In this document: positions 1-31,262 of the stretch, piece by piece
Layout of the letters: each line of letters opens with the position of its first letter
Position numbering within the stretch: the first letter of the stretch is position 1
Origin: a virus
Strand: one strand, 5' to 3'
Virus record (IMG/VR): IMGVR_UViG_3300042890_002117
Location: 1 to 31,262 of that record
DNA: 31,262 bases
The notes under the pieces: generated by a model
What the model was told of the DNA's origin: nothing
The model's input: the letters and a program-made list of their open reading frames with translations, nothing else
Database searches by the model: none
Made by a program: the position numbers and the translations under genes

Positions 1-757
1 CAAATCCACTCTCAGCATCTAATGTATTTTGAATTGCTTGTAAAGATTGAAGCACAGCCATTGCTCCATTGACCTTTAATAATGCTTTCTCTACATCTGC
101 ACTTTGCTCTCCAAATAATGCACTTGCTCCTTGAAGTCCAGCGAATACTCCGACTCCTAATTGAAGTCCTTGCATGGTAGTATCTAAAGCTCTTGTATCG
201 GATGCGAGTAACTTAATCTGTGCTTGTTGATCACCCATTGCATCAGTCAAGTTAGCTAACTTTGCTTGAGCTTGTACATATTCTTCTCCACTTAATGTAG
301 GTAAGATAGCTTTTAATTCAGATATCTGTGCCTTATAAGACTTCATTTTACCTGCCATCTTCTCAGTCTCAACAGCCATCTTTTGAGTAGCAACCACTCC
401 TTTATCAATAGCATCTCCAAGCTGTTTAGTAGCTTGAACTTGGTCAATCTTACCTTTCTTATAAGCATCAACAGTCTCTTTTCCTGCCTTGCCAAAGTCC
501 TTTTCTTTAGCAGTAGCATTTGACAATTCAGAACTAAGCTCCTTAATCTCATTGGTGGATTCAGCTATTGAGATGTCGTTAAATGTCTTTTTTGCTTTCG
601 CCAGGTTACTCAATCCTTCAGCACCACCCTTGACATTCTTAGTGAACTCATCAACTTGCTTGGTGGCATTCTCCATTACTCCATCCAATGAAGCGACTTG
701 CTTAGTAGCATCAGTTGTGTCAAAAAGTACCTTAAATATTATATTTTCTGTTGCCAT
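1..757 (-). CDS. Tape measure protein, N-terminal 252 residues (3' end outside window)
   Basis: This gene runs off the left edge, so only the N-terminal part is visible. The start is the ATG at 757-755 (protein begins MATENIIFKVLFD). The sequence is rich in Ala, Lys, Gln and Glu and looks almost wholly helical, with coiled-coil stretches (for example TKQVASLDGVMENATKQVDE and KMAGKMKSYKAQISELKAIL) and then a more hydrophobic helix beginning near GLQLGVGVFAGLQGASALFG. That pattern is typical of tape measure proteins, which set tail length in siphophages and take part in DNA entry. It is the last visible gene of the terminase, phosphoesterase, 85-residue, tape-measure series. The identity rests on composition and position, not on a catalytic motif. 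Most family members are far longer, so most of the protein should lie beyond the edge. Confidence 0.72.
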   Translation of the reverse strand, partial: MATENIIFKVLFDTTDATKQVASLDGVMENATKQVDEFTKNVKGGAEGLSNLAKAKKTFNDISIAESTNEIKELSSELSNATAKEKDFGKAGKETVDAYKKGKIDQVQATKQLGDAIDKGVVATQKMAVETEKMAGKMKSYKAQISELKAILPTLSGEEYVQAQAKLANLTDAMGDQQAQIKLLASDTRALDTTMQGLQLGVGVFAGLQGASALFGEQSADVEKALLKVNGAMAVLQSLQAIQNTLDAESGF

Positions 758-819: not shown

Positions 820-1077
820 TTAAGATTCAAGCTCCTCTCTATCTTCAAACAGCTCATCATACATCTCAGCAGACATCACATCAATAATCTTATAGCATCG
901 CCTTAGTATATTCTTTTTTAAAATACTTTCCTCAGATGTCATTGGATTAATCATGTCGGCTATCTGAATAAGAGTAGAGCAGGAAGTAAAGTATTCCTCA
1001 CGAGTGGTAAACTCAACCTCAAAGTCCAAGTCATCATCATCCTCATCATCTATAATTGGTGCTTCTTTTTCTGACAT
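820..1077 (-). CDS. Small acidic protein upstream of tape measure
   Basis: This 85-residue protein is of unknown function. The N-terminal third is strongly acidic (IIDDEDDDDLDFEVEF), and the remainder looks helical with two conserved-looking Cys residues (FTSCSTL and LRRCYKI). It starts at an ATG only 2 nt after the stop of the phosphoesterase gene and ends 62 nt before the tape measure start, so it is co-transcribed with both. In many siphophages the position directly before the tape measure gene is held by a tail assembly chaperone. That is a positional suggestion only. No slippery sequence extending this frame was found, and another locus (29494-30236) has the stronger claim to that role. 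Confidence 0.7.
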   Translation of the reverse strand: MSEKEAPIIDDEDDDDLDFEVEFTTREEYFTSCSTLIQIADMINPMTSEESILKKNILRRCYKIIDVMSAEMYDELFEDREELES

Positions 1078-1079
1078 GA

Positions 1080-2264
1080 TTAAAAAATATTAGTGATTCG
1101 AGCTATCTGCCCATTATGTTTGCAATGCAAAAACCCCTCAATAGCCTTGATACTTAAATAGCCATTTCGATGATGCCAGCTATCTGTGCCTGATGGACTC
1201 CTCAAGCTCTCAACAGTTATGCCGATAAAGTCCTTAGCAGTCTTATGATGAACATGATGTGTATAAACGTATCTGTGCTTAGTAGATGCCCATTCTTGAC
1301 TGAACTCCTGAGCCATCAATAAAGGTAAGTCAGCTAACTTAGCACCATCGCCATGTGTAGTGCCTATCAAGTTATTGTAATACTTAAATCCCTTCCGATG
1401 TGCTATTGAACAATCAAATGTGATGTTCTTGCAGTCCTTAAAGTAAGTCTTTATAACATCTGCTAAAAAGAAACCATTAGTATAATCGTGATTGCTTGGA
1501 TTGAAAGTGAAGTGAACATCAGCTACCGTTACCAACTTTAAAAGTATATCAATATAAAGCTGTTTAGCAATTAGAAAGTTATCATACCACATCCCATCAG
1601 TATCTTGTGGAGTGCCTGATGTAGTCATTCTCTTTGGATTATCCACATGGAGAATATCATTACCACCGATAAATAAAATCTTATCAATGGCAAAGGATGA
1701 TACCTTTTGCAATATGCCATCAACTCCTTCCAATGCTCTCTTGACTGCTATCTGATTGTTGTAATCTTCGCCAGTCTCGAATGCTGTACATAACTTGCCA
1801 ATGTGAATGTCTGCAGGATCTAATACAAGTAAGTAGCTATTCTTATCAACTATTCTTTTTAATTTTGGGAACTTAGGGATGAATGCTTGTAGGTCCTTAA
1901 TCAAGTCTGCTTTAAGCTCACTTACCTTTACTATCTCATTAGGCACAAAGTCAGGATTCACAACAAAGGCACTCACTCCTGGAGTAGTATCTGTTGGCTT
2001 AGTCTTAATCCATATGTTTTTAGCCGATGTCAATGGCACATCTGTAAGCTCGCAAGCATTCAAGATGCCCTCATGCAAGTCTAATATCCTCTTTTTATTC
2101 CTCATGATATAAATCTTCAAGGCATTTATATCAAGATTATCATCGGAACTATCTTCTGTGTTTAAAAGTATCTTGGATAACTTGGTATATGAGTCGTGAA
2201 AGGATGGATTGGCTATAATTAAGTCCCTAATTTGTTGGTCTAAATGACTAAATTTTGACTTCAT
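1080..2264 (-). CDS. Calcineurin-like metallophosphoesterase
   Basis: This 394-residue protein has the full motif series of the calcineurin-like phosphoesterase superfamily: DIH at 152-154, GGND at 200-203, SNHD at 257-260, His304 in TTHGDG, and HHVHH at 336-340. These residues bind two metal ions and hydrolyse phosphomono- or diesters. The first 140 residues are a separate, mostly helical region that could hold a DNA- or protein-binding domain. It lies 86 bp downstream of the large terminase and 2 nt upstream of the acidic 85-residue gene. A phage phosphoesterase next to terminase could act in DNA processing (a nuclease or 2',3'-phosphatase) or in removing a host nucleotide signal. The sequence does not tell which, and the substrate is unknown. 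Confidence 0.88.
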   Translation of the reverse strand: MKSKFSHLDQQIRDLIIANPSFHDSYTKLSKILLNTEDSSDDNLDINALKIYIMRNKKRILDLHEGILNACELTDVPLTSAKNIWIKTKPTDTTPGVSAFVVNPDFVPNEIVKVSELKADLIKDLQAFIPKFPKLKRIVDKNSYLLVLDPADIHIGKLCTAFETGEDYNNQIAVKRALEGVDGILQKVSSFAIDKILFIGGNDILHVDNPKRMTTSGTPQDTDGMWYDNFLIAKQLYIDILLKLVTVADVHFTFNPSNHDYTNGFFLADVIKTYFKDCKNITFDCSIAHRKGFKYYNNLIGTTHGDGAKLADLPLLMAQEFSQEWASTKHRYVYTHHVHHKTAKDFIGITVESLRSPSGTDSWHHRNGYLSIKAIEGFLHCKHNGQIARITNIF

Positions 2265-2350: not shown

Positions 2351-3655
2351 CTATAAATCTAACTTAGTCCGATAAATATTTACTAAGCTATATTTGAAAG
2401 CGTCTAATAAATGCGACAACTCCTTACCCTCGCCACTACTCTTTTTGATTAGATTACCATGCATATCTGCTTCACAATAGGTAAGGTCCTTGATTAGATA
2501 AGGCATTGATTCATTGATAAAGCACTTGTTAAAATGGAAGGCTCTGTTCATTATCTCTCTACTATTATGATTGGAGTGATTCATTCCTGGTATAGTGAAT
2601 GCCCTGTCATGTAAATTTAACTCATCTTTTATTACATGATAATAATTCAACCCACCTCTACTGATGGCTTGGCGATTCTTACCTGTGCTGTCTCCTGTTA
2701 CTATCACATAGTTTGACTTTGGAAGCTTGCTCCTTATCTCAGCACATAACTGCCATATGTCGCTATTCCTTAGCCGATACTCCTCAATAAAGTAAACTAC
2801 TCCAGCTCTAATCTGCGATGCCACACAAGTCATTGGATCTACGTTAAAGTCAAATGATAGTAAGATATCCGACTTATCAAAGTCAAAATTGCCAACGTGT
2901 TTATTCTTGTCAAAGTTAGTGATGTAAGGCTTATCAACCTCAGCTCTACCCCATTTACCATATAGATTGATGTCTAATAGGTTTTGATTATGCTCATACT
3001 TCCTTCTTAAACTTATCTCATAGGCTTCCTTATCAATGTACTCATTGTCATTTAAGGTAGAGTGATGGATGAGTAGGTCATCTCCATAATCAGCTCTCGG
3101 CTTGCTGATATCATCAGGACTAAAGAAATAGGACCGTATAAAGTTATTCTCATCAACTGGATTAAAGGCACAGATGAATTGTAGGTATTCGGCTTGTGGA
3201 GTCCTTAGAACTGAGTCAATCATATCAATAGATTCTTTAGAACATTCGGTTATCTCATCAACGAACACATGAGTAGCTTGACTTATCCCCTTAGTCTTTT
3301 CAGCTTCTACTAATCCATAAGGCATTATCTTATGTCCTGTTATCTTATTAGTGAATACCATTGATGAATTGGCTACTTCTGAATACTCAAAATAATGCTT
3401 CATTCCAAACATCTTGATGGCAAAGCAGATGTCTTTAAATGTAGTTGAACGTATTGTCTCGTGATTCTTTCTGCAATAATAAATTGCCCTGTGCTTAGGT
3501 GCAAATGATTCTATTAATAGCTTGAGGATGATGTGGAAAGTCTTGGAGCTTCCTCTGCTCCCATAACAAACAAGATATCTCTGTTTGCTTTCTAATACAG
3601 GTATGAATGCTTTTGAATAAAACTTACGAGGTATTTTTGGTTTCTCATTCTCCAT
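2351..3655 (-). CDS. terL: Terminase large subunit
   Basis: This 434-residue protein is the ATP-driven DNA packaging motor and headful or site-specific nuclease. The ATPase half carries a Walker A box GSRGSSKT (32-39), a Walker B FVDE (131-134) and a coupling motif region with FNPVDENNF (165-173). The C-terminal half is an RNase H-like nuclease, with acidic residues in LSFDFNVDP (Asp269), VTGDSTGKN (Asp322) and HLLDAFKYS (Asp418). Length and motif order match the Terminase_3/PBSX-type large subunits of siphophages. It overlaps the small subunit gene by 11 bp, which suggests translational coupling. It acts with the small subunit and portal, but the portal gene lies about 23 kb away on the same strand, unlike the usual adjacent order. 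Confidence 0.95.
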   Translation of the reverse strand: MENEKPKIPRKFYSKAFIPVLESKQRYLVCYGSRGSSKTFHIILKLLIESFAPKHRAIYYCRKNHETIRSTTFKDICFAIKMFGMKHYFEYSEVANSSMVFTNKITGHKIMPYGLVEAEKTKGISQATHVFVDEITECSKESIDMIDSVLRTPQAEYLQFICAFNPVDENNFIRSYFFSPDDISKPRADYGDDLLIHHSTLNDNEYIDKEAYEISLRRKYEHNQNLLDINLYGKWGRAEVDKPYITNFDKNKHVGNFDFDKSDILLSFDFNVDPMTCVASQIRAGVVYFIEEYRLRNSDIWQLCAEIRSKLPKSNYVIVTGDSTGKNRQAISRGGLNYYHVIKDELNLHDRAFTIPGMNHSNHNSREIMNRAFHFNKCFINESMPYLIKDLTYCEADMHGNLIKKSSGEGKELSHLLDAFKYSLVNIYRTKLDL

Positions 3656-12318: not shown

Positions 12319-12327
12319 AAAAACATC

Positions 12328-12654
12328 ATGCAATTAGATATATTTACATCCCAAAATTTAAGAGATAAAGGCATTCAACAAGCAATCAATCATGCCGATC
12401 AAGTCAAGCCTTTATGGAGTGAACAAGCCTACAACTGCTTATTAAATTACATCAGATACAATGATGAGTTTATGACTGAAGATGTCAGAGAAGCATCCAA
12501 GAATCAGTTATCTGAGCCACCAAGTGCGAGAGCTTGGGGAGGAATAATAGTCAAGGCAGTTAAATGTGGATTGATTTACCGGAAAGGATTTAAGAACGTA
12601 TCAAATGTAAAAGCTCATTGCACTCCAGCGACTTTATGGGCAGTAAATAAATAA
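12328..12654 (+). CDS. Conserved phage protein, winged-helix-like
   Basis: This 108-residue protein begins MQLDIFTSQNLRDKGIQQAI and contains SEPPSARAWGGIIVKAVKCG and the ending KAHCTPATLWAV. From memory these are landmarks of a small conserved protein common in phages near replication and methylase genes, whose fold appears winged-helix-like. The biochemical role is not established. It starts 9 nt after the helicase-methyltransferase stop and is probably read from the same mRNA; a strong hairpin follows it. Confidence 0.75.
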   Translation: MQLDIFTSQNLRDKGIQQAINHADQVKPLWSEQAYNCLLNYIRYNDEFMTEDVREASKNQLSEPPSARAWGGIIVKAVKCGLIYRKGFKNVSNVKAHCTPATLWAVNK

Positions 12655-12664
12655 ACTATAAATC

Positions 12665-12687
12665 GGCACTAAACTTAATTTAGTGCC
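12665..12687 (+). terminator. Perfect hairpin, possible terminator or processing site
   Basis: GGCACTAAA and TTTAGTGCC form a perfect 9-bp stem with a CTTAA loop. It lies 10 nt after the conserved 108-residue gene. No long T-run follows, so an intrinsic terminator is only one possibility; RNA stabilisation or cleavage is another. The remaining 57 nt up to the next gene include a GCAAATTGCAAAT direct repeat and an A-rich start region. Confidence 0.5.
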
Positions 12688-12744
12688 ATAAATTAGACTA
12701 ACAATTCTCAATTCGCAAATTGCAAATCATAAAATAAACTAAAA

Positions 12745-12954
12745 ATGGAAAAACAAACAGTAACAGAATGGCTATTCGATAAATTATGGGATCAGCCAAG
12801 AGATAAATTTAATTGGTTTGTCTTGTTAAAACAAGCTGAAAAGATGGAGAAGGAGCAGATTGAAGATGCTTATCAACAAGGCTACAATAATGCTTATTTC
12901 AATAATCCTTTAAGCAAAGAACAATATTATCAAGAAACATTTAAAAAAGACTAA
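12745..12954 (+). CDS. Small hypothetical protein, paralogue of the 13250 gene
   Basis: This 69-residue protein has the layout WLFDKLW, then KQAEKMEKEQIEDAYQQGYN, ending YYQETFKKD. The product at 13250-13510 has the same arrangement (NWLINTL, KAKEIERDQLINAHTRAY, YYNQKYKQD). From memory this small helical family is frequent in Bacteroidetes phages; no function is known. It starts after the 12665 hairpin with an A-rich leader and is 1 nt from the next gene. Confidence 0.75.
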   Translation: MEKQTVTEWLFDKLWDQPRDKFNWFVLLKQAEKMEKEQIEDAYQQGYNNAYFNNPLSKEQYYQETFKKD

Positions 12955-12955
12955 C

Positions 12956-13228
12956 ATGACATACCAAAAATACATTGATTTAGGATTTAAGAGAACTGAC
13001 ATGAACGATTCAGTAGAGTTTAAGCAGACTGGCTATTATGGATTTGCTTTAGAGAAACGAATTAATAAAAAACAGATGGTTTGTGTAGTTAGTGGAGAAC
13101 TTGATAATCCAAAATTATACATTAAGAAAAGTAATAGTGATACATATCACATTATGCCAATTTCAACAGAAGCAGTTATTGATTTGCTAACTAAGTATGA
13201 AAGCATTGATTTTACTAAATTTGCTTAA
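12956..13228 (+). CDS. Small hypothetical protein
   Basis: This 90-residue protein is of unknown function, with alternating strands (VEFKQTGYYGFALEKRIN, then MVCVVSGELDNPKLYIKK) and a C-terminal helix. It begins MTYQKYIDLGFKRTDMND. It is placed between the two paralogous small genes and starts 1 nt after the first, so it belongs to the same operon. Confidence 0.72.
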   Translation: MTYQKYIDLGFKRTDMNDSVEFKQTGYYGFALEKRINKKQMVCVVSGELDNPKLYIKKSNSDTYHIMPISTEAVIDLLTKYESIDFTKFA

Positions 13229-13249
13229 TAACCTTTAAAAAAGACTAAC

Positions 13250-13510
13250 ATGGAACAAAAATACACAGCAGTAAATTGGCTAATAAATACTTTAGAAGCT
13301 CTTGAATCCAACCTTGAAAAAGGATTGATTAGTGTTGATGACTTCATCATTGATGTAGCTTGGTCAAAGGACAAAGCCAAAGAGATTGAACGTGATCAGT
13401 TAATTAATGCACACACACGAGCTTATTTAATCGAAGAAGAACATATCAGCAAGGAGTTTGCAGACAAAGTAAGCACCGAATATTACAATCAAAAATATAA
13501 ACAAGATTAA
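13250..13510 (+). CDS. Small hypothetical protein, paralogue of the 12745 gene
   Basis: This 86-residue protein shares the N-terminal Trp helix, the central KAKEIERDQLINAH helix and the YYNQKYKQD ending with the product of 12745-12954, with a 16-residue longer middle. Two divergent copies separated by an unrelated gene suggest an old local duplication or repeated gain. It starts 21 nt after the preceding gene and ends 1 nt before the DnaA-like gene. Confidence 0.75.
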   Translation: MEQKYTAVNWLINTLEALESNLEKGLISVDDFIIDVAWSKDKAKEIERDQLINAHTRAYLIEEEHISKEFADKVSTEYYNQKYKQD

Positions 13511-13511
13511 G

Positions 13512-14009
13512 ATGAATGAATTAGCACCTAATAAGATTGAATTAGCAAATGGAATGCTGGCAGATATCAAGCACCTGGAGATTACACTACTAAATAAGAA
13601 GCTCGAATACTCAAAATATTGCTTTGAAAATGGAGTGCTTGACCTCACACATTTAAAGGCTGATGATGTGATAAACATCGCCTGTGATACATTCAACCTT
13701 ACAAGGAAGCAACTTACAAATGTAGGCAGAAAGGCTGTGATTTGCCAACCAAGACAAGTGCTTATGTACTATTTACATCGAATATTCAATGACCTACGAG
13801 TTACCGAATCAGGCAACAAGCAGGATGGTTTCTTATCTTTAAAAGAGATAGGGAATATCTTTGATAACAAGGATCACTCAACCATCATTCATTCGATTAG
13901 GAAAGTTGAATCATGCATCCAGCAACCTGAATGGAATCCTTTTTTACATAGCTTTTATGTGAAGCTGAAAGATGCCATCTTCTCTAAAATTGGAGTTGAT
14001 ATTAAATAA
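13512..14009 (+). CDS. Stand-alone DnaA domain IV-like DNA-binding protein
   Basis: In this 165-residue protein, residues 45-160 look like the DnaA C-terminal DNA-binding domain (Bac_DnaA_C): a helix pair around DDVINIACDTFNLTRKQLTN, the RQVLMYYLHR helix, LSLKEIGNIFDNKDHSTIIH and the signature DHSTIIHSIRKVE (121-133), the equivalent of the DnaA box-reading helix. There is no AAA+ ATPase, so it cannot melt an origin alone. It could bind DnaA boxes to compete with host DnaA, or act at the phage origin or as a regulator. The N-terminal 44 residues look like a helical oligomerisation segment. It joins the XRE gene by a TAATG junction. Confidence 0.85.
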   Translation: MNELAPNKIELANGMLADIKHLEITLLNKKLEYSKYCFENGVLDLTHLKADDVINIACDTFNLTRKQLTNVGRKAVICQPRQVLMYYLHRIFNDLRVTESGNKQDGFLSLKEIGNIFDNKDHSTIIHSIRKVESCIQQPEWNPFLHSFYVKLKDAIFSKIGVDIK

Positions 14010-14320
14010 TGAGTTACAATAAAAACATAGCTAAAAATATTAAACTGCTTAGGCTATCCAAAGAATTAACGATAAAAGACTTTGCTGAAAAAGTGAGCAT
14101 TGGAGTAGGTATATATGGATTCTATGAAACTGAAAGAGCAAATGTGCCACTTGACAATCTCATTAAAATAGCCAATTTCCACTCAGTAAAGTTAGATGAT
14201 TTGATAAACGATAAGATAGGCAATCAGTTAAGAAAAAAGATTGTTTCTATTGAGTATCGTAAGCAAAAGGAAAATTTACAAAAGAAAAGACATAGTATAA
14301 TGGTAAGCAGACAAGCTTAA
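14009..14320 (+). CDS. XRE-family helix-turn-helix regulator
   Basis: In this 103-residue protein, residues 5-70 form an XRE-type helix-turn-helix (IAKNIKLLRLSKELTIKDFA, then VSIGVGIYGFYETERANVPL, then IKIANFHSVKLDDLI), followed by a basic tail. Cro/CI-type phage regulators have this form and usually bind palindromes of 14-18 bp as dimers, so it is a natural candidate for the TTCAAAAT palindrome at O1-O4. The link is inferred. It is the last gene of the rightward block, and its stop is 1 nt from the convergent endolysin stop with no terminator between. Confidence 0.85.
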   Translation: MSYNKNIAKNIKLLRLSKELTIKDFAEKVSIGVGIYGFYETERANVPLDNLIKIANFHSVKLDDLINDKIGNQLRKKIVSIEYRKQKENLQKKRHSIMVSRQA

Positions 14321-14321
14321 T

Positions 14322-14777
14322 TTATACATACCTTAAATACCCTTTTATAGATGTTTTAGGTCTGCTTCTTTTACAAACTTCATAACCCTCTCTTGATCCT
14401 TCATCATTACTATTACCTTCAATAGTGTTGATATGAGTAGATGTTACTGATTCAACTATTCCTGTATGACCTAATCCTTTGCCAAAATCCATTATAAATA
14501 TATCGCCAGGTGCAGGAGATGTAACCCTATTTTTTACATTAGCTTTATTCCAATGAGCCAACACACCACCAGTCTTTACCAATGGATTAGGTATTTTTAA
14601 ATCTATACAAGTCTTTTGAAAACACCAATAAACAAATGCAGCACACCACGAAGCAGGAAATGTTATGCCTACTGATGCTAAATAATCTTGAACAGGTTTA
14701 CCCCAATTAGAGTTTTTTGGATGTTCTTCTTGTCCTATTTGAGTTATTGCTAATTGCAATGCTTTTTCTTTTAACAT
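14322..14777 (-). CDS. CHAP-domain endolysin
   Basis: This 151-residue cell-wall hydrolase of the CHAP (NlpC/P60-related) family is probably an amidase or endopeptidase acting on peptidoglycan at lysis. The catalytic Cys45 lies in SWCAAFVYWC, His104 in GLGHTGIVES, and the third polar residue near IEGNSND (120-126). No signal peptide or separate wall-binding domain is present, so it would need a holin to leave the cytoplasm; holin candidates lie at 18071-18801 on the same strand. It is the last gene of the leftward lysis/NinG block. Confidence 0.9.
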   Translation of the reverse strand: MLKEKALQLAITQIGQEEHPKNSNWGKPVQDYLASVGITFPASWCAAFVYWCFQKTCIDLKIPNPLVKTGGVLAHWNKANVKNRVTSPAPGDIFIMDFGKGLGHTGIVESVTSTHINTIEGNSNDEGSREGYEVCKRSRPKTSIKGYLRYV

Positions 14778-18454: not shown

Positions 18455-18801
18455 GGTTTAATTTTTTTAACGATTGATTTTGCTAATGTATCAATGTGTG
18501 TGCTTGTTTTAGTCATGACATAAGATACCAACGATTTAGAAGCAAGGCAACTGATTAAAGCAGCTGATAGCATCATGCTTGGATTGTTAGTGAACTTCAA
18601 TACTATCCACCCAATCGAATAACCTAAGATAAACCCTATTGCACTCTCGAAAACTGCATCCCAAAATGGCTGTTTCTTGATGTGGTAAGCATTTAATAAG
18701 ACAATAAATGAGCCACCAATAGTGATAAATAGCAAGTTAGCCTTAGCGAATATCTGAGTGATTATGTCCCAAGCCATGTTGGTTAATTGTTCCTTTGACA
18801 T
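18451..18801 (-). CDS. Holin-like membrane protein
   Basis: This 116-residue protein has about three membrane segments (NLLFITIGGSFIVLLNAYHI, AIGFILGYSIGWIVLKF, MLSAALISCLASKSLVSYV) and a basic C-terminal tail (IVKKIKP). It resembles the LydA/holin-type small membrane proteins of phages. Translational coupling to the next membrane protein gene suggests the pair acts together, for example holin and a regulator. It follows the 75-residue gene by 6 nt, at the end of the fibre operon. Confidence 0.65.
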   Translation of the reverse strand: MSKEQLTNMAWDIITQIFAKANLLFITIGGSFIVLLNAYHIKKQPFWDAVFESAIGFILGYSIGWIVLKFTNNPSMMLSAALISCLASKSLVSYVMTKTSTHIDTLAKSIVKKIKP

Positions 18802-18807
18802 TAGTAT

Positions 18808-19035
18808 CTATGAGTTTATTGTATCTAAAATTTGTTGTAAATAAAAGAAGTCGCATCCTCCACTTGAAAGATAGATGGCATACTTCAATGCCTTTGTCTC
18901 CGAGTCTCCAATAGCATCTATGACTTGTTTATGTTCTGCATCTAATGGATCTAAACATATTATAATAGAGCCACTATCCACTATTACTTCCATGTGATAT
19001 ATACCATCTTTGTCTGAATAATATTTATATGTCAT
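18808..19035 (-). CDS. Small hypothetical protein after the fibre gene
   Basis: This 75-residue protein has a beta-hairpin-like first half (MTYKYYSDKDGIYHMEVIVD, SGSIIICLDPLD) followed by an acidic helix. It is not recognised. It starts in a TAATG junction with the fibre gene stop, so it is translated with it, and could be a fibre chaperone. That is positional inference. Confidence 0.68.
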   Translation of the reverse strand: MTYKYYSDKDGIYHMEVIVDSGSIIICLDPLDAEHKQVIDAIGDSETKALKYAIYLSSGGCDFFYLQQILDTINS

Positions 19036-20609
19036 TAGAATAAATTAAATGATATTTGAGTAAAAAATGTACTATTGCCTGTAGCATTATTGACCACTTT
19101 AATAGTGAGATAATCTCCAGCAGAAACAGCAATCGAATTGACATAGTCAGTAAATACTCCTGCAACAGAGCCTGCAGCTATTGTTACACTTATGCCTGTA
19201 GCCACCCCATTCTTATTGATTGAAACAACGCATGAGCCACTACTACTTTGAGTATTGGCAGTCTGTACTAATAACCTTGCAGCCACACAATCATTATTCA
19301 CAAAGTATCTTCTGTTATTTTCAGTAGTGTTATCTGCTTGAGCAGATGCTGGCTGATAGTATGAAGTAGTCGAAGCAGCAACAAAGTCAGATATCAACAT
19401 TGAATTTAAGATTGCTCTTGGATTAGATGAAGCAGTAGCAACACCAGCCACACCTAAGAAGATTTTGCCTGTTGCCAATGCACTATCCAACTTGCCATTA
19501 AATGTACTCCAATTTGCAGAAGATAAAGCTCCTCTATTAGTAGCAGATGCAGTAGGTAAGTTAAAGTTATGAACTGCCAATGATGAAGCAATATTAAAGT
19601 CAGCTCCTGTTGTTCCTACAGCAAATGATTGTACACTATCAGTCAATCCATTTAAAGCACTTATGCCTGTTGAGAATGAAGTGATAATCTCACATAAATG
19701 GCTGTTTTGAGTATGTAAAGTGATAGTTCTACCTGAATGAACGATATTAACGCTTATAGCAAGTCTATCAGTAGCAGTTAAGATTGTAGCAGGAACAGCT
19801 AAAGCGGTAAAATAAAGGTCAATTGAAGTGCCATTAGTTATTCCCTCAGGAGTGCCTGATGAAGTAGCTATCGAAGTGAACGAAGTACCATCATACTTAT
19901 ATAAAGTTACAGAAAAAGTAGGAGAGCCACCACTTGATGATGCACTAAACCACATCTCAAAATTCCAATTACCAGCAGGAATATTTAATAAACCAGGATC
20001 GCCAGCATCAGTTAAGAATCGTGCTATAATTCCATCAGCTGCAATAGTGAAGTCAGCACCGACACCAATTACAGGAGTCTTGCTCATCTCGTAATAAGTA
20101 TTGCCAACGAACACACCTTGATTAGTACCACCATTAAGATAGTAAGGCTGACTTGCACCACCACCACCACCTGAAGGGAAGTTAGCAAGCGAGCCATCTC
20201 CTCTAATATATTGACTTACTAAGCCTGCTCCTGTAACTGCTAATGTTCCAGCAGTTGTGATAGGATTGCCACTAACACTAAATGCTGATGGCATAGTAAG
20301 GTCTACACTTGTAACTGTGCCTGAGCCACCACCACCACCACATCCACATTGGCATAGGTTTCTTTGAGTTTCTATATATGTAAACAAATCCAATAGAGTA
20401 GCAAAAGCTCCCCCATTGATAGATGGAAGCTGAGCAAGATTGATTGTGATTTCTGTTGAGCCATCATTCAAGTAAAGAGTCCCCATCGTATCATTTTGGA
20501 ACATCTTTAAATTAGCCAACATAAATTCATTTATAGTGATGCCACCTGAATCTTGAATAGTCAAGATGCAGTCAGTATAACTTATGGTTTGTATATTACA
20601 ACTTATCAT
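19035..20609 (-). CDS. Tail fibre / receptor-binding protein with paralogous N-terminal module
   Basis: In this 524-residue protein, residues 1-94 form a module ending in the Cys-Gly cluster LCQCGCGGGGGSG. The same module makes up the whole 95-residue protein of the next gene upstream. Then come phage fibre linkers (GTVTSVDLTMPSAFSVSGNP, AGLVSQYIRGDGSLANFPSG), glycine-rich joints, a beta-rich part and a Ser/Ala/Asn-rich C-terminal region (about 410-524) likely to bind the host. GTVTSV... and QYIRGDGSL elements are common in Bacteroidetes phage tail fibres. The N-terminal module probably attaches the fibre to the virion, and the C-terminal end sets host range. Confidence 0.82.
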   Translation of the reverse strand: MISCNIQTISYTDCILTIQDSGGITINEFMLANLKMFQNDTMGTLYLNDGSTEITINLAQLPSINGGAFATLLDLFTYIETQRNLCQCGCGGGGGSGTVTSVDLTMPSAFSVSGNPITTAGTLAVTGAGLVSQYIRGDGSLANFPSGGGGGASQPYYLNGGTNQGVFVGNTYYEMSKTPVIGVGADFTIAADGIIARFLTDAGDPGLLNIPAGNWNFEMWFSASSSGGSPTFSVTLYKYDGTSFTSIATSSGTPEGITNGTSIDLYFTALAVPATILTATDRLAISVNIVHSGRTITLHTQNSHLCEIITSFSTGISALNGLTDSVQSFAVGTTGADFNIASSLAVHNFNLPTASATNRGALSSANWSTFNGKLDSALATGKIFLGVAGVATASSNPRAILNSMLISDFVAASTTSYYQPASAQADNTTENNRRYFVNNDCVAARLLVQTANTQSSSGSCVVSINKNGVATGISVTIAAGSVAGVFTDYVNSIAVSAGDYLTIKVVNNATGNSTFFTQISFNLF

Positions 20610-20613
20610 TTAT

Positions 20614-20901
20614 CTATCCTCTTGCACATGGACAATAGCAAGCATCAATCTGATTCTGAATAGCTGCCAATAACAAGTCAAATGTCGCATAAGTCGTAGG
20701 TACTAAGTTAGCATCTACCGTAGTTGTTGAGATAGTAAATGAGCTTACCAAGTCTCTCATGACAAATGATTCAGGCATATTGCCAGCATCAAGCATAAGC
20801 TCCGTTAAATCAAAGGTCATAAATGTATAACCAGCAGTATTTATTAGTAATAGTCTGCAATTTGCAAATGCTATTGAATATATTTTCTCGCAACAAGCCA
20901 T
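20614..20901 (-). CDS. Virion protein made only of the fibre's N-terminal module
   Basis: In this 95-residue protein the overall pattern matches residues 1-95 of the fibre: an N-terminal Cys strand region, then DLxxS-type strands, then a helix ending in a Cys cluster (ATFDLLLAAIQNQIDACYCP here, ATLLDLFTYIETQRNLCQCG in the fibre). It may form a collar or adaptor in complex with the fibre. It starts with MACCEK and sits 4 nt before the fibre gene, downstream of the capsid terminator, so its own promoter or read-through is needed; none is clear. Confidence 0.72.
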   Translation of the reverse strand: MACCEKIYSIAFANCRLLLINTAGYTFMTFDLTELMLDAGNMPESFVMRDLVSSFTISTTTVDANLVPTTYATFDLLLAAIQNQIDACYCPCARG

Positions 20902-20920
20902 AATTTTAATAATTAAAAGT

Positions 20921-20955
20921 TAAAAAAAAAGGGATGGGCAAGTACCCACCCCTTT
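20921..20955 (-). terminator. Intrinsic terminator after the major capsid gene
   Basis: On the minus strand AAAGGGGTGGG (20955-20945) pairs with CCCATCCCTTT (20938-20928) over 11 bp (one G-U), with a 6-nt loop, and is followed by a run of T. It lies 24 nt after the capsid stop codon and is the best terminator in the window. Confidence 0.88.
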
Positions 20956-20979
20956 AAAAAGAAAAAACAAACGAAATTT

Positions 20980-22059
20980 TTAGCAGATATTAAGTTGTGA
21001 GCAATCCATATCGCCACAAGCTAATTTCCATTGTAATTTTAAGTTAGCACCTGAAGGCAAACAACTGAATGCTGCAGTCGGAACGTAGAATAAGTCGTAA
21101 GATTTACGAGCAGTAATAGTATGCTTATCAGTACAAGCGTCATAATGCATAGTGAAGTCAAACATAACACCATTGTACTCTCTTACCTCTTTAACATCAT
21201 AATCAGTGTACAAAGCTCTATCGCCATTGTATCTATAAGACTCCATAAGTTGAACAGTACCATTAGCCCAAGTCAATGCTTTACATCCTGTAGCAGTTAA
21301 CAAAGCATCCATTCCACTATCAAAGTACATTGGTTGATTTCTTACCTTAGTAGCATCAATTCCTAAAGATGAGTTAGCAACTGCCAATCCACTCAAGTTT
21401 TGATACATATTAACGAAAGAGCCACCTACCATTGTGAATCCGTTAGTAACACCTAACTTGTTAAATTCATTTTCGATGATTGGAATACCTGCAGGATTGA
21501 TTTGTCCGTTAGTACCAATCAAGTTGATTGTTCTTGGAGCAGTCAATGAAGAAGTTACACCATCAGCATAGTTACCCATCAAAGCTTCAAGCTTCAAAGT
21601 GATGTCAGCATTTACTGCTCTTAATACTGTATCGAATAATTGAGTTACTTTAATCAACTTGTCAGTCTCTTGAGAATAACAAAGTGTATCATACTCAACA
21701 CGAGATAAAGTGATTTTCTTCCATACATCGCCAGTGATTTTTACTGAAGCATAACCATAAGGATCAGCTCCAACAGTTGCAGCAGTACAGATGTCTGTAG
21801 CAGTTACACCATCGCCACAATCAGGCTTTAGATATTGTAAGTCAATTTTAGGAAAAGTAGAGTTGATAGCTGCTTTATCTTCTAAAGTCTTAGTGATAGC
21901 TGCTAACCAATCTGTATAACCAGCCATGTTAGGCTCAGATTTCAATGCCAATAATACTCCGTTTTTGTTTACCCATTGAGAGGGAAGGTTTTGTTGCCCT
22001 TCTAATAAGATAGTAAGGTTTTTGCAACACGTTAAACCTGATGTAGCTGTAACACCCAT
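20980..22059 (-). CDS. Major capsid protein (probable)
   Basis: This 359-residue protein has its own late promoter, a roughly 110-nt leader with a 5' hairpin, and a strong terminator right after it, as expected for the most abundant virion protein. Features are an N-terminal Cys pair (TSGLTCCKNLT), a long helix then LKSEPNMAGYTDWLAAITKT, a central beta region with VRNQPMYFDSGMDALLTATG, and a C-terminus with CGDMDCSQLNIC. The lack of an obvious catalytic motif, size and gene context fit an HK97-fold capsid protein, though the fold cannot be proven by eye. The several Cys residues near both ends might cross-link neighbouring subunits. Confidence 0.72.
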   Translation of the reverse strand: MGVTATSGLTCCKNLTILLEGQQNLPSQWVNKNGVLLALKSEPNMAGYTDWLAAITKTLEDKAAINSTFPKIDLQYLKPDCGDGVTATDICTAATVGADPYGYASVKITGDVWKKITLSRVEYDTLCYSQETDKLIKVTQLFDTVLRAVNADITLKLEALMGNYADGVTSSLTAPRTINLIGTNGQINPAGIPIIENEFNKLGVTNGFTMVGGSFVNMYQNLSGLAVANSSLGIDATKVRNQPMYFDSGMDALLTATGCKALTWANGTVQLMESYRYNGDRALYTDYDVKEVREYNGVMFDFTMHYDACTDKHTITARKSYDLFYVPTAAFSCLPSGANLKLQWKLACGDMDCSQLNIC

Positions 22060-25965: not shown

Positions 25966-25997
25966 TTGTTTTTGTTTTTAAATATGAATGATGAAAA

Positions 25998-26028
25998 GAA
26001 AGTTAATTAAATTTTGTCAAGTTGCAAA
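25998..26028 (-). promoter_or_regulatory. Late promoter B (scaffold block)
   Basis: Minus strand: TTTG (26028-26025), 19 bp, TAACTTTC (26005-25998), followed by TTTTC; the same elements as promoters A and C. It fills the 63-nt gap after the MuF-like gene. Confidence 0.8.
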
Positions 26029-26871
26029 TTAAACTAAAGTAGGGTAAGCTTTATGGATGCAGTTATAACCACCCCTATTTTTTAAGAACTCGGCAATAGT
26101 GTTTGTCCCCTCAATCATGCCAGCACCGAATCCTGTTGGATCTTTCTCTGCTTTCTTTAGCGACTTTAAAACCTCATCATAAGGGATTGCTCCTGTGAAG
26201 TCATCAATGAAATGCTTACAGATAGGTCGTGAGCCTTCAATTAAAATCGAAGGAGTATAAAATAATGCATTCAATTTAAGCTCTGTGCTTATTCCTGCAT
26301 TCAATTCGCCTGTATATTGGTAAAGTGCATCTTGTGCTGTCTGCTTGGCCCACTTAACTAAGTCCCCTGTATCGTTAGTAGATTGGCCCATAAAATACTT
26401 TTCTAAGTTGCCCTGCAATTCAACTACTGATAGATTATTGTACATGGCTTCATAGAGTAAAGTCTGAACACGATTGACTACATTAACCTCATAGCCACCT
26501 GCAGTAAGTCCATCAGTAAATATACCATTGTTGTTTAAGAGTCTATCAGCCACCCTCTGAGATACCTTGTTGCCTAACTCCTTATTGATACCGATGTCAG
26601 TCCTTCCAACATCTTTGGCACTATCAACAAATTTTAATACATTAGCTTCATAGGTACTCTTATCCCTTGCATCAATGACATACTGCCTAACCTGGTTTAT
26701 CAAGTCATCATCAATAACTAATCTACCTTTCTTGGAAGATAAATCTTTGAGTATAAGCTTAAACAATTCTTTAAAAGTTTTTTCAGAGCTAATCTCTAAA
26801 CCCTTTAAAAAATCATTGATAGCTTGCTCAGATTCCTGTTGGGATTGTTCGTATAATTTGAGTATTGGCAT
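26029..26871 (-). CDS. MuF-like minor head protein
   Basis: This 280-residue protein overlaps the portal gene by 44 bp, the usual position of Mu gpF/SPP1 gp7-type proteins, which bind the portal and enter the capsid. The N-terminal two thirds are helical. The C-terminal domain has the Cys/His pattern of the MuF core: IEGSRPICKHFIDDF near 221-235 and the ending RGGYNCIHKAYPT. The domain probably helps DNA ejection or capsid assembly. Promoter B lies just after its stop. Confidence 0.8.
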   Translation of the reverse strand: MPILKLYEQSQQESEQAINDFLKGLEISSEKTFKELFKLILKDLSSKKGRLVIDDDLINQVRQYVIDARDKSTYEANVLKFVDSAKDVGRTDIGINKELGNKVSQRVADRLLNNNGIFTDGLTAGGYEVNVVNRVQTLLYEAMYNNLSVVELQGNLEKYFMGQSTNDTGDLVKWAKQTAQDALYQYTGELNAGISTELKLNALFYTPSILIEGSRPICKHFIDDFTGAIPYDEVLKSLKKAEKDPTGFGAGMIEGTNTIAEFLKNRGGYNCIHKAYPTLV

Positions 26872-28549
26872 CGTTTATTAATTCTTGGTCAGTTTTATTC
26901 CAATTAGAATCTATCTCTAACAACGATGTAAGTATTTTGTAGCCTTGCATATGGAAGTCAAAAGCATCATTAGACAATAACTGCATAGCCTTTAACTTGC
27001 TTATCTCATCAAGTGAATAGCCATAGTAGATATCGTTATTGATTAGCATCTTCATTGCTCTTTTCTCTACATCATCATATTCCTTATCTACATACTCATC
27101 ACTTAAAGACTTTACTAAGTCCTTACTGATTGTTCCTACCTTGATAATCTCGCTTAATACATCATCCTTGCTTCTTATCTCGTACTTAGTAGGCTTGACT
27201 ACTTTTACAGGCTCAGGATCTTGTAAATAACCAGCTATACATTGTAAAGAAAACTCCAATAGATTCATTAAATTGTCTCCAATGACTGCAATAAAATCTC
27301 TTTTTTGCTCAAGGTCATACTCTTTTGCTACTCCACTTTGAGTATTGTTCGACTGATAAACTGAGATAGACTGCTCCATCTTATCCATCATCTCAAACCA
27401 TATATCTTTATTTATTCCTACTGCTTCAAATGGTGGTGCATAAAATCTTACACTCGGAGTATCATTGGCTGTCTGCCCATCTAAATTGCTTGGTGCTGGT
27501 CTTACTATAACAGAATAAGGAGACAAGTCAGGAACAATCCCTCTGCCATGACAAGCTGAACAAGGACCTACGTTACACATCCCTCTTTCATGATTACATT
27601 TATTATCCATGCAATCCCCTAACATGACTTGACCTTTACCACGACAAGCAACACACTCAGTAGATAGTCTCTCCTCAATAGGAAATGAGAATCTCATCCT
27701 TACTGCATCAAAGTCAGATGAAGTAGTGATGGCTTTATTTGCCCATGAATTATAAGCAGTAAAGTAAGTATCGAATAACTTGTAGCTCTTTGTTTTTCTG
27801 CCCTTCTTAATCGTTCTAATAGTCTCCAATCCACCCAATACACGATAAGGAACAAACCCTAAATTATGATTATACCACAACGATAATTCATAGACTAATT
27901 TATTATCCTTATCCAATCTCACTGGAGTATTAATCCATATATCAGTATCCGTTATAATAGTGTAAATATCGCCCTCAATATCGCCAACCTTAGCTTCTCC
28001 ACTCTCATAGATTAGTATCTTGTCATCAATGTATTCAATCTCATCACTATTTAGATATTGGATAGCAACATCAACCCTCTCAGTAGTAGGCTGACCATAA
28101 GCTTCTAAAGGTGGCAAATTAGAATCATAAGTGTTAATCGGCAAAGCAATTATTAAACCATTGGCATCTTCAACTCCTAATTGTAGAAAGGTCTTAAAGA
28201 TAAGGTCAGTAATTGTCTGCTTATTGATTGATACAACAGAATCAAATCTATGAGTAGCTATATACTCCTTAGTGATATCGCCAGCAATAATCTTATAATC
28301 CGATTGCTTGACTAAATGATAAGTAGAATTTAATGCCTTTAAAATTGGATCTTGTGTTATCTTTTGAAAGATGCTAATCCTATAATCCAATATCTCTTTT
28401 GGCTCGTTAGGTCTCGCTATCTTTAATAACTTCTCAGGCATGACTCCTCTTGTATGGACAATCATCTCCTCATAAAAAGAAACCCAAAGCTCTCGTAACT
28501 TTGGGTCTATTTCTTTATCTAAATATTTCTGTACGATTTCTAATTCCAC
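26828..28549 (-). CDS. Portal protein with DnaJ-like zinc motif
   Basis: This 573-residue protein is the probable portal, the dodecameric ring through which DNA enters the head. The evidence is its size, position before the MuF-like gene, and the helical C-terminal part (GYSLDEISKLKAMQLLSNDA, FDFHMQGYKILTSLLEID). Unusually, residues 299-337 carry a zinc-finger-like set: CVACRGKG (299-306), C313, C318, C325 and CSACHGRG (330-337), the CxxCxGxG repeat of DnaJ. It lies 15 nt after the tail-tube-like gene and may be read from promoter C. Confidence 0.76.
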   Translation of the reverse strand: MELEIVQKYLDKEIDPKLRELWVSFYEEMIVHTRGVMPEKLLKIARPNEPKEILDYRISIFQKITQDPILKALNSTYHLVKQSDYKIIAGDITKEYIATHRFDSVVSINKQTITDLIFKTFLQLGVEDANGLIIALPINTYDSNLPPLEAYGQPTTERVDVAIQYLNSDEIEYIDDKILIYESGEAKVGDIEGDIYTIITDTDIWINTPVRLDKDNKLVYELSLWYNHNLGFVPYRVLGGLETIRTIKKGRKTKSYKLFDTYFTAYNSWANKAITTSSDFDAVRMRFSFPIEERLSTECVACRGKGQVMLGDCMDNKCNHERGMCNVGPCSACHGRGIVPDLSPYSVIVRPAPSNLDGQTANDTPSVRFYAPPFEAVGINKDIWFEMMDKMEQSISVYQSNNTQSGVAKEYDLEQKRDFIAVIGDNLMNLLEFSLQCIAGYLQDPEPVKVVKPTKYEIRSKDDVLSEIIKVGTISKDLVKSLSDEYVDKEYDDVEKRAMKMLINNDIYYGYSLDEISKLKAMQLLSNDAFDFHMQGYKILTSLLEIDSNWNKTDQELINDANTQIIRTIPTGI

Positions 28550-28564
28550 CTATAAGTTGGTTTA

Positions 28565-29155
28565 TTAAATTCCTAAAGCAGCTTCAATACCAGCAACAAC
28601 ATGACCAACGATAACAGGATTGTCATTGATAAAGCTCAATGTCAATTCATATACTTGGTTATCTTTTGTGCCATCTTCTCCAACCATCAAACCACCATCA
28701 ACGATAGCATCAATGCCACTATGAACAGTTGTAGAACCTGTTGTGTAATCAGGATTGTAGAATATTTGACCATTACAATCTACCCAAAAGAATCTGTATA
28801 AAGGACTATTCTTGATAATATCATTAAAGAAAGCATAGTCAGTCGCCGTAACTGAATCAATGTAGTAAGTCTTGAATGCTAAAGTATGAGTGTATGTTCC
28901 AATAGGGAAATCTACTTGGCAACTTTCATACTTCTTCTTGTCTGAACTTGGCAATGGCTTAGAGCCGATACCCAATGGAAGTCCTACAATAGTGCCAGCA
29001 GTAACTGCTGCTGCAACATCAACTATATCAGTAAGGTCAATGGATGTATGACAGTCCATCACTCCGATATATTTAATACCTGCTTTTCTTTTCGCTTTCT
29101 TACAGTCGCCATAAGCTGTTGGCAACGTAGCCGTACATAATGCATCACAAATCAT
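28565..29155 (-). CDS. Probable major tail tube protein
   Basis: In this 196-residue protein a Cys-rich start (MICDALCTATLPTAYGDCKK) precedes a beta-rich core with THTLAFKTYYIDSVTATDYA, a helix (FNDIIKNSPLYRFFWVDC), and the C-terminal QVYELTLSFINDNPVI. A strand-helix-strand fold with QVYELTLSF near the end is like tail tube proteins of other Bacteroidetes phages. It stands between the 81-residue gene (4-nt overlap) and the portal, and the chaperone-like locus diverges from it 340 bp away. The tube order is unusual, since portal genes normally come before tail genes. Confidence 0.62.
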   Translation of the reverse strand: MICDALCTATLPTAYGDCKKAKRKAGIKYIGVMDCHTSIDLTDIVDVAAAVTAGTIVGLPLGIGSKPLPSSDKKKYESCQVDFPIGTYTHTLAFKTYYIDSVTATDYAFFNDIIKNSPLYRFFWVDCNGQIFYNPDYTTGSTTVHSGIDAIVDGGLMVGEDGTKDNQVYELTLSFINDNPVIVGHVVAGIEAALGI

Positions 29156-29397
29156 GATTTATTTTTTTTAGATTTAGTAAAAGTTTCGTTTGTTTTTTCT
29201 ATATCTAAACCCACTTCTTCTGTGGTAGTGTTTTCTTCTATTGCTTGCTCAACAGCCTTTTCAACTGCTTCAATGTGCTTAGGAATATCAACATAAACCT
29301 CATAGCTAATCATAAGACCTTGACCTGCTAATTTATCAAAGATTGAATCCTTGATTTCTGAAATTTTGCCTGTACCTCTATTGATGTATAACCCCAT
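29152..29397 (-). CDS. Small hypothetical protein, first gene of late block C
   Basis: This 81-residue protein has the compact start MGLYINRGTGKISEIKDSIF and an acidic helical middle (HIEAVEKAVEQAIEENTTTE), then a Lys-rich tail. Unknown. Its ATG lies only 5 nt after late -7 box C, so its mRNA is probably leaderless or nearly so. ATGA junction with the tail-tube gene. Confidence 0.65.
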   Translation of the reverse strand: MGLYINRGTGKISEIKDSIFDKLAGQGLMISYEVYVDIPKHIEAVEKAVEQAIEENTTTEEVGLDIEKTNETFTKSKKNKS

Positions 29398-29402
29398 GAA
29401 AA

Positions 29403-29433
29403 GAAAGTTAATTAAAATAAATTAACTTGCAAA
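29403..29433 (-). promoter_or_regulatory. Late promoter C (tail tube/portal block)
   Basis: Minus strand: TTTG (29433-29430), 19 bp, TAACTTTC (29410-29403), then TTTTC and the start codon ATG at 29397. Identical core to promoters A and B. Confidence 0.8.
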
Positions 29434-29468
29434 TTTTTATTTAATTATTTTTTACTAACTAAATTTAG

Positions 29469-29493: not shown

Positions 29494-30072
29494 ATGAAGA
29501 ATCCATTAAAAAAGCTATTCACTAAAAAGAAACGAATAAGTAAGATAGGAAACAAAGAAGTCCATCTTAATCTTGTCTATACCGATGCATTTGGCAATAA
29601 TTGGTATGAGCCTACCGACTTAGCCGACTATCCATTTATCAGAATTAACCATATACAGACTTATTCAAGGTATGCAGAGCTTAAAATGACTCCTGATAGG
29701 CTTAATAAAATCAATAAAGCAATACTTCAATGTGCTACTGATGGAGATATGAATGGAATCATAGTCCTGGCAACCGAAATACAGATTGCAGAGCAGATGT
29801 TTTGTGAGAAAACTACCCTACTAAGATTGGCAAGTGCAATGTTTCTCATCAATAATGAGCCACCAAACTCGTGGAATGAAGAATATGAGCAGAAGAAAAT
29901 TGAATCAATGCTTAACGATGCTGATTGTATGGCTTTTTTTTTGCCCATGGCCTACCGAAACTTGAAGTCCTACAGCGAAAACTCCGATTTGCAGGTTATA
30001 GAGTATTTGCAGGAATCGTTGAACAAGATGAACAGATTGTCTTATCTGCTAGAGAATATTTTGCAAAAGTAG
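29494..30072 (+). CDS. Tail assembly chaperone-like protein, frame 0 product
   Basis: In this 192-residue protein the N-terminus is very basic (MKNPLKKLFTKKKRISKIGN), followed by a beta/alpha region (YTDAFGNNWYEP) and a helical part (MTPDRLNKINKAILQCATDG). The frame ends at 30072, but 9 Ts at 29934-29942 allow a -1 shift into an overlapping open frame reaching 30236, giving a longer fusion. Such a short/long pair is the hallmark of tail assembly chaperones (lambda G/GT), which guide tube polymerisation around the tape measure protein. The location beside a tail-tube-like gene agrees, though the tape measure lies elsewhere. Confidence 0.65.
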   Translation: MKNPLKKLFTKKKRISKIGNKEVHLNLVYTDAFGNNWYEPTDLADYPFIRINHIQTYSRYAELKMTPDRLNKINKAILQCATDGDMNGIIVLATEIQIAEQMFCEKTTLLRLASAMFLINNEPPNSWNEEYEQKKIESMLNDADCMAFFLPMAYRNLKSYSENSDLQVIEYLQESLNKMNRLSYLLENILQK

Positions 30073-30236
30073 CCGAAGATACCAACATGAATCTACTGAC
30101 TGTCTCTGAGCATTCAGGCATTCCACTTGACACATTGACCTATTCAATCACTACCTTAGAGCTGTTTAGTATATGGTCATCCATTATAAGAAAGATAGAG
30201 ATATCAAACGAACAAATCGAAAAAGCAAACAAATGA
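29925..30236 (+). CDS. Downstream -1 frame (extension domain of chaperone-like fusion)
   Basis: This frame has no ATG at its start (it opens with TTG at 29925) and is entered from the 29494 frame through the slippery T run; the joined product would be about 247 residues. It begins FFFAHGLPKLEVLQRKLRFA and ends SNEQIEKANK, with an amphipathic helix (VSEHSGIPLDTLTYSITTLE) and a Trp-containing helix (LFSIWSSIIRKIEIS). In other phages the extension (T domain) binds the tape measure protein. It is joined to the next gene by ATGA. Confidence 0.6.
   Translation: MYGFFFAHGLPKLEVLQRKLRFAGYRVFAGIVEQDEQIVLSAREYFAKVAEDTNMNLLTVSEHSGIPLDTLTYSITTLELFSIWSSIIRKIEISNEQIEKANK
29934..29942 (+). promoter_or_regulatory. 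-1 ribosomal slippery run (T9)
   Basis: Frame 0 reads GCT TTT TTT TTG, containing the heptamer T TTT TTT in the right phase for a -1 slip. It is the longest homopolymer noted in any gene here and lies where the two overlapping frames meet. Confidence 0.6.
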
Positions 30237-30475
30237 AATTAACAACTAAAATAAACGAAATGACACTAAGAGACAAAATGAAACAAAGAGCCACATATAC
30301 CAATTATTGTGATGGCTTAAATGGAGATGATAGAATCAATATTGACAATCTAATCCTTGATAGAAAGGAATATGCTGAAGCTTTCTTAAATACCAACATC
30401 CCTAAACAGCAGGATCATTGGCAAAAGAAAATCAATCAAACAAACGATTTAATAAAACGAATCTTACTACTCTAA
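30233..30475 (+). CDS. Small hypothetical protein
   Basis: This 80-residue protein is basic and helical (MKLTTKINEMTLRDKMKQRA, KQQDHWQKKINQTNDLIKRI). I chose the ATG at 30233, which overlaps the preceding stop as ATGA; a longer frame from 30173 overlaps that gene by 64 bp. It overlaps the end of the minus-strand tail gene by 4 bp. No family is recognised. It could be a small partner of the chaperone-like protein. Confidence 0.6.
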   Translation: MKLTTKINEMTLRDKMKQRATYTNYCDGLNGDDRINIDNLILDRKEYAEAFLNTNIPKQQDHWQKKINQTNDLIKRILLL

Positions 30476-31262
30476 CAGCTCTTGTTAAATATCTGACATA
30501 CCTTCTCAAGCTTGATGGTAGGAAACCACATTGAACTCTTATCATTGCCCTTAGTAAATCCACCTTTAACTTGATAGTATTGAGTATCGCTACCAATAGT
30601 TATTCTTAAATTCTTACCACCTAAGATAGCTTTTAAGTTTTGAACTTGCCATTGTGGAATCTTCCATACATTTAATTCTTTATTCTCAATCATCCTTGAC
30701 TTGGTATGCTTAGTTATGCTGGAGATAGTCGTATCTACTTCTAAGTAAGTATTCTCAATAGCCACTTCCATATACTCTACAACTGCCTTTAAACGGATGC
30801 AGTTAGACATTGGAACGATAGTGCCAGGAGTAGTGTAGTAGTCTGTTGAATAGCTCCATACTCGGTTATTACAATCAATATTATCATAGTCTGAACATAT
30901 CAAGATAGAACTTTCATTGCATTGAATAAGGCAGTAAGGCTCACTCATGTAAGCTTCAAAATCATAAACAAATTTAAGTCTAAAACAATCCTCATCAGTT
31001 ACATCTCGAATATCACTAAACAGAAATTGAGTAGTTGATTGAACTCCATACTCATTGAATGAAGTAGTTGAATTGAATGTAGTTGTGCTTCCTAATAAAG
31101 TAGCACCATCAGCTGAATAGACATCTATCCTTATTAGCTCTTGACTTCCATAATGAAGTGATAATTGAGTAGTGAATGAATCATCAATAAGGTAAGGCTG
31201 GCAATAGCACTCGCCACATAAGACATCATGATTGAATCCTATGTTGGTGGCACAATTACCTA
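30472..31262 (-). CDS. Tail-associated protein, C-terminal part (5' end outside window)
   Basis: The frame is open from the right edge to the stop at 30472 (262 residues visible). A shorter version beginning at ATG 30948 exists, but the open frame continues upstream with protein-like sequence (FNHDVLCGECYCQPYLIDDS and many S/T strands), so the ATG is internal. The visible chain is beta-rich with many Cys, Ser and Thr, and a repeated type of element (DVYSADGATLLGSTTTFNST). It fits a distal tail or tip protein by context: its tail neighbours, the tape measure at the other window end and the same strand. Family not recognised. Confidence 0.65.
   Translation of the reverse strand, partial: GNCATNIGFNHDVLCGECYCQPYLIDDSFTTQLSLHYGSQELIRIDVYSADGATLLGSTTTFNSTTSFNEYGVQSTTQFLFSDIRDVTDEDCFRLKFVYDFEAYMSEPYCLIQCNESSILICSDYDNIDCNNRVWSYSTDYYTTPGTIVPMSNCIRLKAVVEYMEVAIENTYLEVDTTISSITKHTKSRMIENKELNVWKIPQWQVQNLKAILGGKNLRITIGSDTQYYQVKGGFTKGNDKSSMWFPTIKLEKVCQIFNKSC

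Follow-up and report, generated by a model that had tools for sequence, protein, structure and literature searches.

The gene at positions 29494-30236 of this phage sequence raises the question of whether two tail proteins are made from one gene by a −1 slip on a run of Ts. The window, that is, the whole stretch of DNA that was analysed, comprises the 31,262 bases of an IMG/VR virus record and comes from a phage known from metagenomes only. Recoding of the G/GT type in tail chaperones has long been known and is widespread (PMC5009743; PMC10885494; PMC3711429), and the roles of lambda G and GT have been described (PMC5009743). With a probability of roughly 0.74, we consider the locus to be a lambda G/GT-type tail-assembly chaperone gene that belongs to an undescribed sequence family, is expressed through −1 ribosomal slippage, and has been displaced from its usual place.

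Reading Frames at the T Run

The run of nine Ts lies on the plus strand at positions 29934-29942 and is read in frame 0 as GCT TTT TTT TTG. The slip heptamer T TTT TTT (29934-29940) begins at codon position 3, which is exactly the phasing claimed in an earlier note on this DNA. Frame 0 of the gene extends from an ATG at 29494 to a TAG at 30072 (29494..30072, plus strand), with 130 nt remaining past the run, and its predicted product is a "G-like" chaperone of 192 aa, for which tblastn found homologues with E-values down to 6e-18. The −1 frame is open from 29925 to a TGA at 30236; ATG is absent from its start, and a TTG is the sole candidate. All of this agrees with the earlier note, as does the ATGA junction with the next gene, whose ATG lies at 30233 and overlaps the TGA of the −1 frame (30234-30236). 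This next gene (30233..30475, plus strand) has a weak match to phrog_480.

Past the slip, the −1 frame would encode a "T" domain of 98 aa (29940..30236, plus strand), which is probably produced only as a G-T fusion. The predicted GT fusion is 247 aa long and has its first 149 residues in common with G, from which it differs in the C-terminus. Late in the G frame, the window and its relatives alike have a slip site past which the −1 frame stays open. Codon statistics in the window show the coding signal shifting from frame 0 to the −1 frame past the T run: over positions 29943-30072, where the tail of G (frame 0) and the start of T (−1) would be dual-coded on the plus strand, the coding log-odds are +3.2 bits for the −1 frame vs. 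−10.0 for frame 0. This shift fits a missing base equally well, and relatives were therefore required.

Relatives and Conservation of the Slip Site

PHROGs recognised the terminase, exonuclease, Erf-like annealing protein, tape-measure, and endolysin genes of the window, and many of its structural genes had no matching PHROGs model. The endolysin-like gene (14322-14777, minus strand) has 99% protein identity to that of a near relative, L006. Direct scans with the chaperone, tube-like, and portal genes of the window did not find close relatives; these were reached only through an alignment of the terminase large subunit, which gave 80 loci. A tblastn search with the fused protein matched approximately 60 of the 80, all of them contigs of uncultivated viruses (best E 6e-18), and the frame-0 similarity found with this query mostly stops at the T run. 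In one locus (L030), the −1 part is also matched, in the −1 frame. With an E cutoff of 1, a search of whole records matched 33 of 40, and for 32 of these E was below 0.002.

The 58 complete gene copies were reduced to 33 non-redundant ones (<90% DNA identity), the window included, and L057 was excluded from the G alignment because of a stop within its frame 0. Relatives as low as ~21% identical in G (21-29%) keep the slip site and both frames. L018 and the L019/L020 pair, which lie beyond the reach of BLAST, have the same arrangement with a T10 run in phase, and profile comparison, as tested on L018, ties this locus to the family in G (E 1.4e-4) as well as in T (E 5e-5). One contig (L038) carries a 2.67-kb stretch with the chaperone gene twice (11968-14633 and 18541-21206, 97.3% identity), possibly as a result of chimeric assembly. 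Among 50,697 phage records, tblastn gave no significant match for the window protein or for G or T of a relative, and a weak search of 395 Bacteroidota genomes, run without a positive control, gave no match. To judge from the best tape-measure and portal matches, the host may be a Bacteroidota bacterium.

The T run was compared across the relatives, as the earlier note had suggested. The heptamer T TTT TTT is in frame, and the run starts at codon position 3, in all 33 non-redundant copies, with run lengths of T7 (n = 10), T8 (n = 1), T9 (n = 21), and T10 (n = 1). In 32 of the 33, the −1 frame extends 110-236 nt beyond the G stop. Relatives with one uninterrupted frame, which the earlier note had named as evidence against recoding, were sought and are absent among the homologues examined. 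The excess of TTT at the slip site is clearly beyond chance: Phe is encoded there by TTT in 62 of 62 cases, vs. 46% elsewhere in the family genes (P about 1e-21, a value that treats rows as independent and is overstated, the direction being clear despite this). The residue preceding the two Phe varies (D, G, N, S, or A), and its codon always ends in T. The sole T8 homologue, L071 (5149-5160), has lost the usual −1 frame relation, which probably reflects an indel, either an error or a real mutation.

Ribosome or RNA Polymerase

The two products, G and GT, most likely arise through −1 slippage of the ribosome, with GT as the rarer of the two. The alternative that survives best is that the same two products arise through slippage of RNA polymerase, wherein mRNAs from T9 and T10 members would gain one U or lose two. 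Bacterial RNA polymerase slippage has been reported on runs of nine As or Ts (PMC5009743), and the T9 run has this length, so transcriptional slippage is possible for the T9 members. Constructs tested in E. coli shifted less at U_UUU_UUU than at A_AAA_AAG (PMC5009743).

Furthermore, runs of 9-10 dominate the family and are mostly structureless, whereas the T7 members are all structured. Most T9/T10 members have no downstream RNA structure beyond that of shuffled sequences; the mean z for T9 members is −0.83, the same as in the control region. In the window, no downstream structure beyond shuffles was found (z about 0), and an Rfam search of the window found nothing. All ten T7 members, in contrast, show downstream structure (z −2.6 to −6.2, mean −4.2), and their clade has a stem that starts 7 nt after the heptamer and shows compensatory changes. 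Across all 31 sequences, no consensus RNA structure was found. An observation from L088 (9056-9155) and the other T7 loci is that the stem occurs in one clade and seems to be tied to the shorter run.

These patterns do not speak for the polymerase alone. The ten members with T7 only carry a bare ribosomal heptamer with a stem at ribosomal spacing, and the contrast between run length and structure falls within one clade, with about three changes each, so that it is phylogenetically confounded and is to be read as a lead, not a test. Treating stem and run length as a case of independent evolution was rejected, there being too few independent pairs. Given the bare heptamer of the T7 members and the invariant phase of the run, slippage of the ribosome rather than the polymerase is favored in this phage, and an origin of the two products in polymerase slippage appears unlikely. 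A mixed situation, in which one family uses two levels, with polymerase slippage on structureless T9/T10 runs, ribosomal slippage on T7 runs with a stem, and a switch between them inside one clade, is a tentative idea that we also regard as doubtful.

Under ribosomal slippage, most ribosomes would translate frame 0 as far as 30072, yielding the 192-aa G-like protein. On UUU UUU, a minority whose P and A sites both contain Phe-tRNA would slip back one base and continue in the −1 frame to 30236, producing the rarer 247-aa GT fusion. As in lambda, the tape measure protein would be coated by G together with the G part of GT, and the T part would bring in the tube protein; these binding partners and the G:GT product ratio are predictions.

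Gene Order and Displacement

In the relatives, the chaperone gene lies directly between the large terminase and the tape measure, which is the position of lambda G/GT. The gene 3′ of it encodes ~1,100 aa and is homologous to the window tape measure, and homologues of the next tail gene follow. In the window, the chaperone gene instead has the opposite orientation and lies at the distal end of the tail genes, not upstream of the tape measure. The slot that it fills in the relatives, between the tape measure and the terminase large subunit gene (2351..3655, minus strand; recognised with PHROGs and used to find relatives), is occupied by an exonuclease and an 85-aa gene (820..2264, minus strand). 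Near-identical relatives of the window phage have an exonuclease and an 83-85-aa gene in the same slot. From this comparison of gene orders, the window chaperone gene appears to have moved out of the terminase-tape measure slot.

A tail-tube-like gene (28565..29155, minus strand) lies upstream of the portal and has homologues in L069, L018, L019, and L020; its putative role is in keeping with its position, which matches that of a "putative tail protein" of Parabacteroides phage PDS1. Between it and the chaperone gene is a small gene of 81 aa (29152..29397, minus strand) with a weak match in relatives. The portal-like gene (26828..28549, minus strand) is matched by tblastn in L018-L020, and in the full phage search it weakly matched the portal of Polaribacter phage P12002L (E 0.08). 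At the right end of the window lies the C-terminal part of a tail-cluster gene (30472..31260, minus strand) whose homologue in the relatives stands fourth in the tape-measure cluster. Upstream of the chaperone gene, AT-rich intergenic sequence at 29400-29435 has a second copy at 25995-26030, between two minus-strand genes (83% over 36 nt), and it is possible that the two copies are a shared promoter or regulatory site.

The earlier note had placed the chaperone gene on the plus strand next to a tube-like gene and far from the tape measure. The first part holds, but the distance is partly an effect of the contig ends. Both ends of the contig are open and fall within the tail cluster. The left end cuts the tape-measure gene, so that only its N-terminus is present (2..757, minus strand, with the start at 757; PHROG match), and a complete homologue of 994 aa is present in L006. 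Because both ends lie within the tail cluster, the tape measure is, on a presumed closure of the genome, probably some kb from the chaperone gene and not at the far genome end.

Probable Identity as a Tail-Assembly Chaperone

As no curated family or fold is matched, it is the position and architecture of the gene that support a chaperone role. Neither Pfam nor PHROG has a model that matches G, and the PHROG chaperone models give no match for T as a family, known chaperones being very diverse. In the AF2 model of G (mean pLDDT 75), helices follow a small beta element, and T modelled alone is helical at low confidence (mean pLDDT 68). Foldseek and VIA-align searches with the G model gave no convincing solved or viral match, an absence that does not demonstrate a new fold.

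These negative results, together with the location of the gene directly 3′ of the terminase in relatives, would also fit a protein that is truly recoded and has some other assembly or packaging role. However, a gene directly before the tape measure, with −1 recoding near its end and a helical domain, has the classical G/GT arrangement, which makes a role other than tail chaperone quite improbable. The relatives thus support the G/GT chaperone proposed in the earlier note, and its proposal of −1 recoding gains from the conserved heptamer and phase, both downstream frames, and the startless second frame.

Two genes of Bacteroidales phages, PDS1_56 and AS73P1_00056 (256-257 aa), lie upstream of a tape measure homologue, have about the length of GT, and show weak collinear profile similarity to the family (hhalign E 0.05). 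Unlike the present family, each is one uninterrupted frame. At this E-value, PDS1_56 was rejected as a single-frame homologue, and possible kinship of the two genes with the family is only a lead. Another chaperone-like pair of overlapping frames lies upstream of a tape-measure homologue in a gut phage clone (L016:2217-2974); it resembles two genes of Porphyromonas phage007a_Bg4 (L015:8206-8915) and has no evident kinship to the present family.

Selection on Both Products

Across the family, the dual-coded stretch after the slip comprises ~45 codons (range 37-60), and both of its frames are conserved. Residues H8, N9, Y44, I45, N49, N52, Q53, C56, Y75, and Y76 of the T domain are near-invariant, and the tail of G, in frame 0 past the slip, is likewise conserved. 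Variation by codon position was computed from pairs with an identity of 60% or more upstream of the slip. It amounts to 0.32/0.22/0.52 before the slip and to 0.31/0.22/0.52 in the −1 frame past the G stop, vs. 0.27/0.35/0.38 (frame 0) and 0.38/0.26/0.36 (−1) in the overlap (29943..30072 in the window), where the triplet periodicity of the family is flattened in both frames. This damping of the wobble position in both overlapping frames indicates that both products are selected, as dual coding predicts.

From the upstream stop to codon 25, the T frame is without ATG, GTG, or TTG in 20 of 31 members, and ATG occurs in this start region in only four of the 31. Together with the selection on both frames, this makes separate initiation, error, and pseudogene poor explanations. 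Two independently started overlapping genes, with T made from the TTG at 29925 or from an internal start, are thus very improbable; the window does have that TTG 15 nt before the first T codon, but separate starts leave the invariant phase of the run unexplained. A base lost from the T run through an error of sequencing or assembly, or mutation of a single-frame gene, is next to impossible. Homopolymers are error-prone, and L071 combines eight Ts with a broken frame relation, but the relatives contradict this reading: of the 33 non-redundant loci, which come from many metagenomes, 32 share the −1 relation despite varied run lengths, and both frames are under selection.

Comparison With Known Systems and Implications

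Like lambda G/GT and the broader G/GT class found in long-tailed phages, the family features overlapping frames upstream of the tape measure (in the relatives) and a predicted −1 slip, with a long and a short product that have a common N-terminus and a T without its own start. It differs from lambda in its slip site, which is an all-U run of 7-10, as well as in matching no known family model and in the inversion and displacement of the window gene. The 37-60 conserved dual-coded codons after the slip differ from the mean of 26 nt to the in-frame stop in annotated SEA-PHAGES cases (PMC10885494). The HK97-like fs-gene cluster of GeneTack is a similar case of conserved recoding in phage tail chaperones, with recoding of 6-7% in reporters (PMC3711429). 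That cluster is similar to HK97, whereas the present family found no match among library models or isolate phages.

A search of the open literature, with partial coverage, found no description for Bacteroidota phages. What appears to be new is a family without a match among isolates, an all-U site of variable length, a long dual-coded stretch that is conserved, and a displaced gene. This would put a name to a chaperone family that is missing from the libraries tried, and would show that a G/GT gene can move away from the neighborhood of the tape measure. The 33 non-redundant copies form a deep natural series with constant output frames but varying run length and RNA structure, and the cause and level of slipping on U runs thus become testable.
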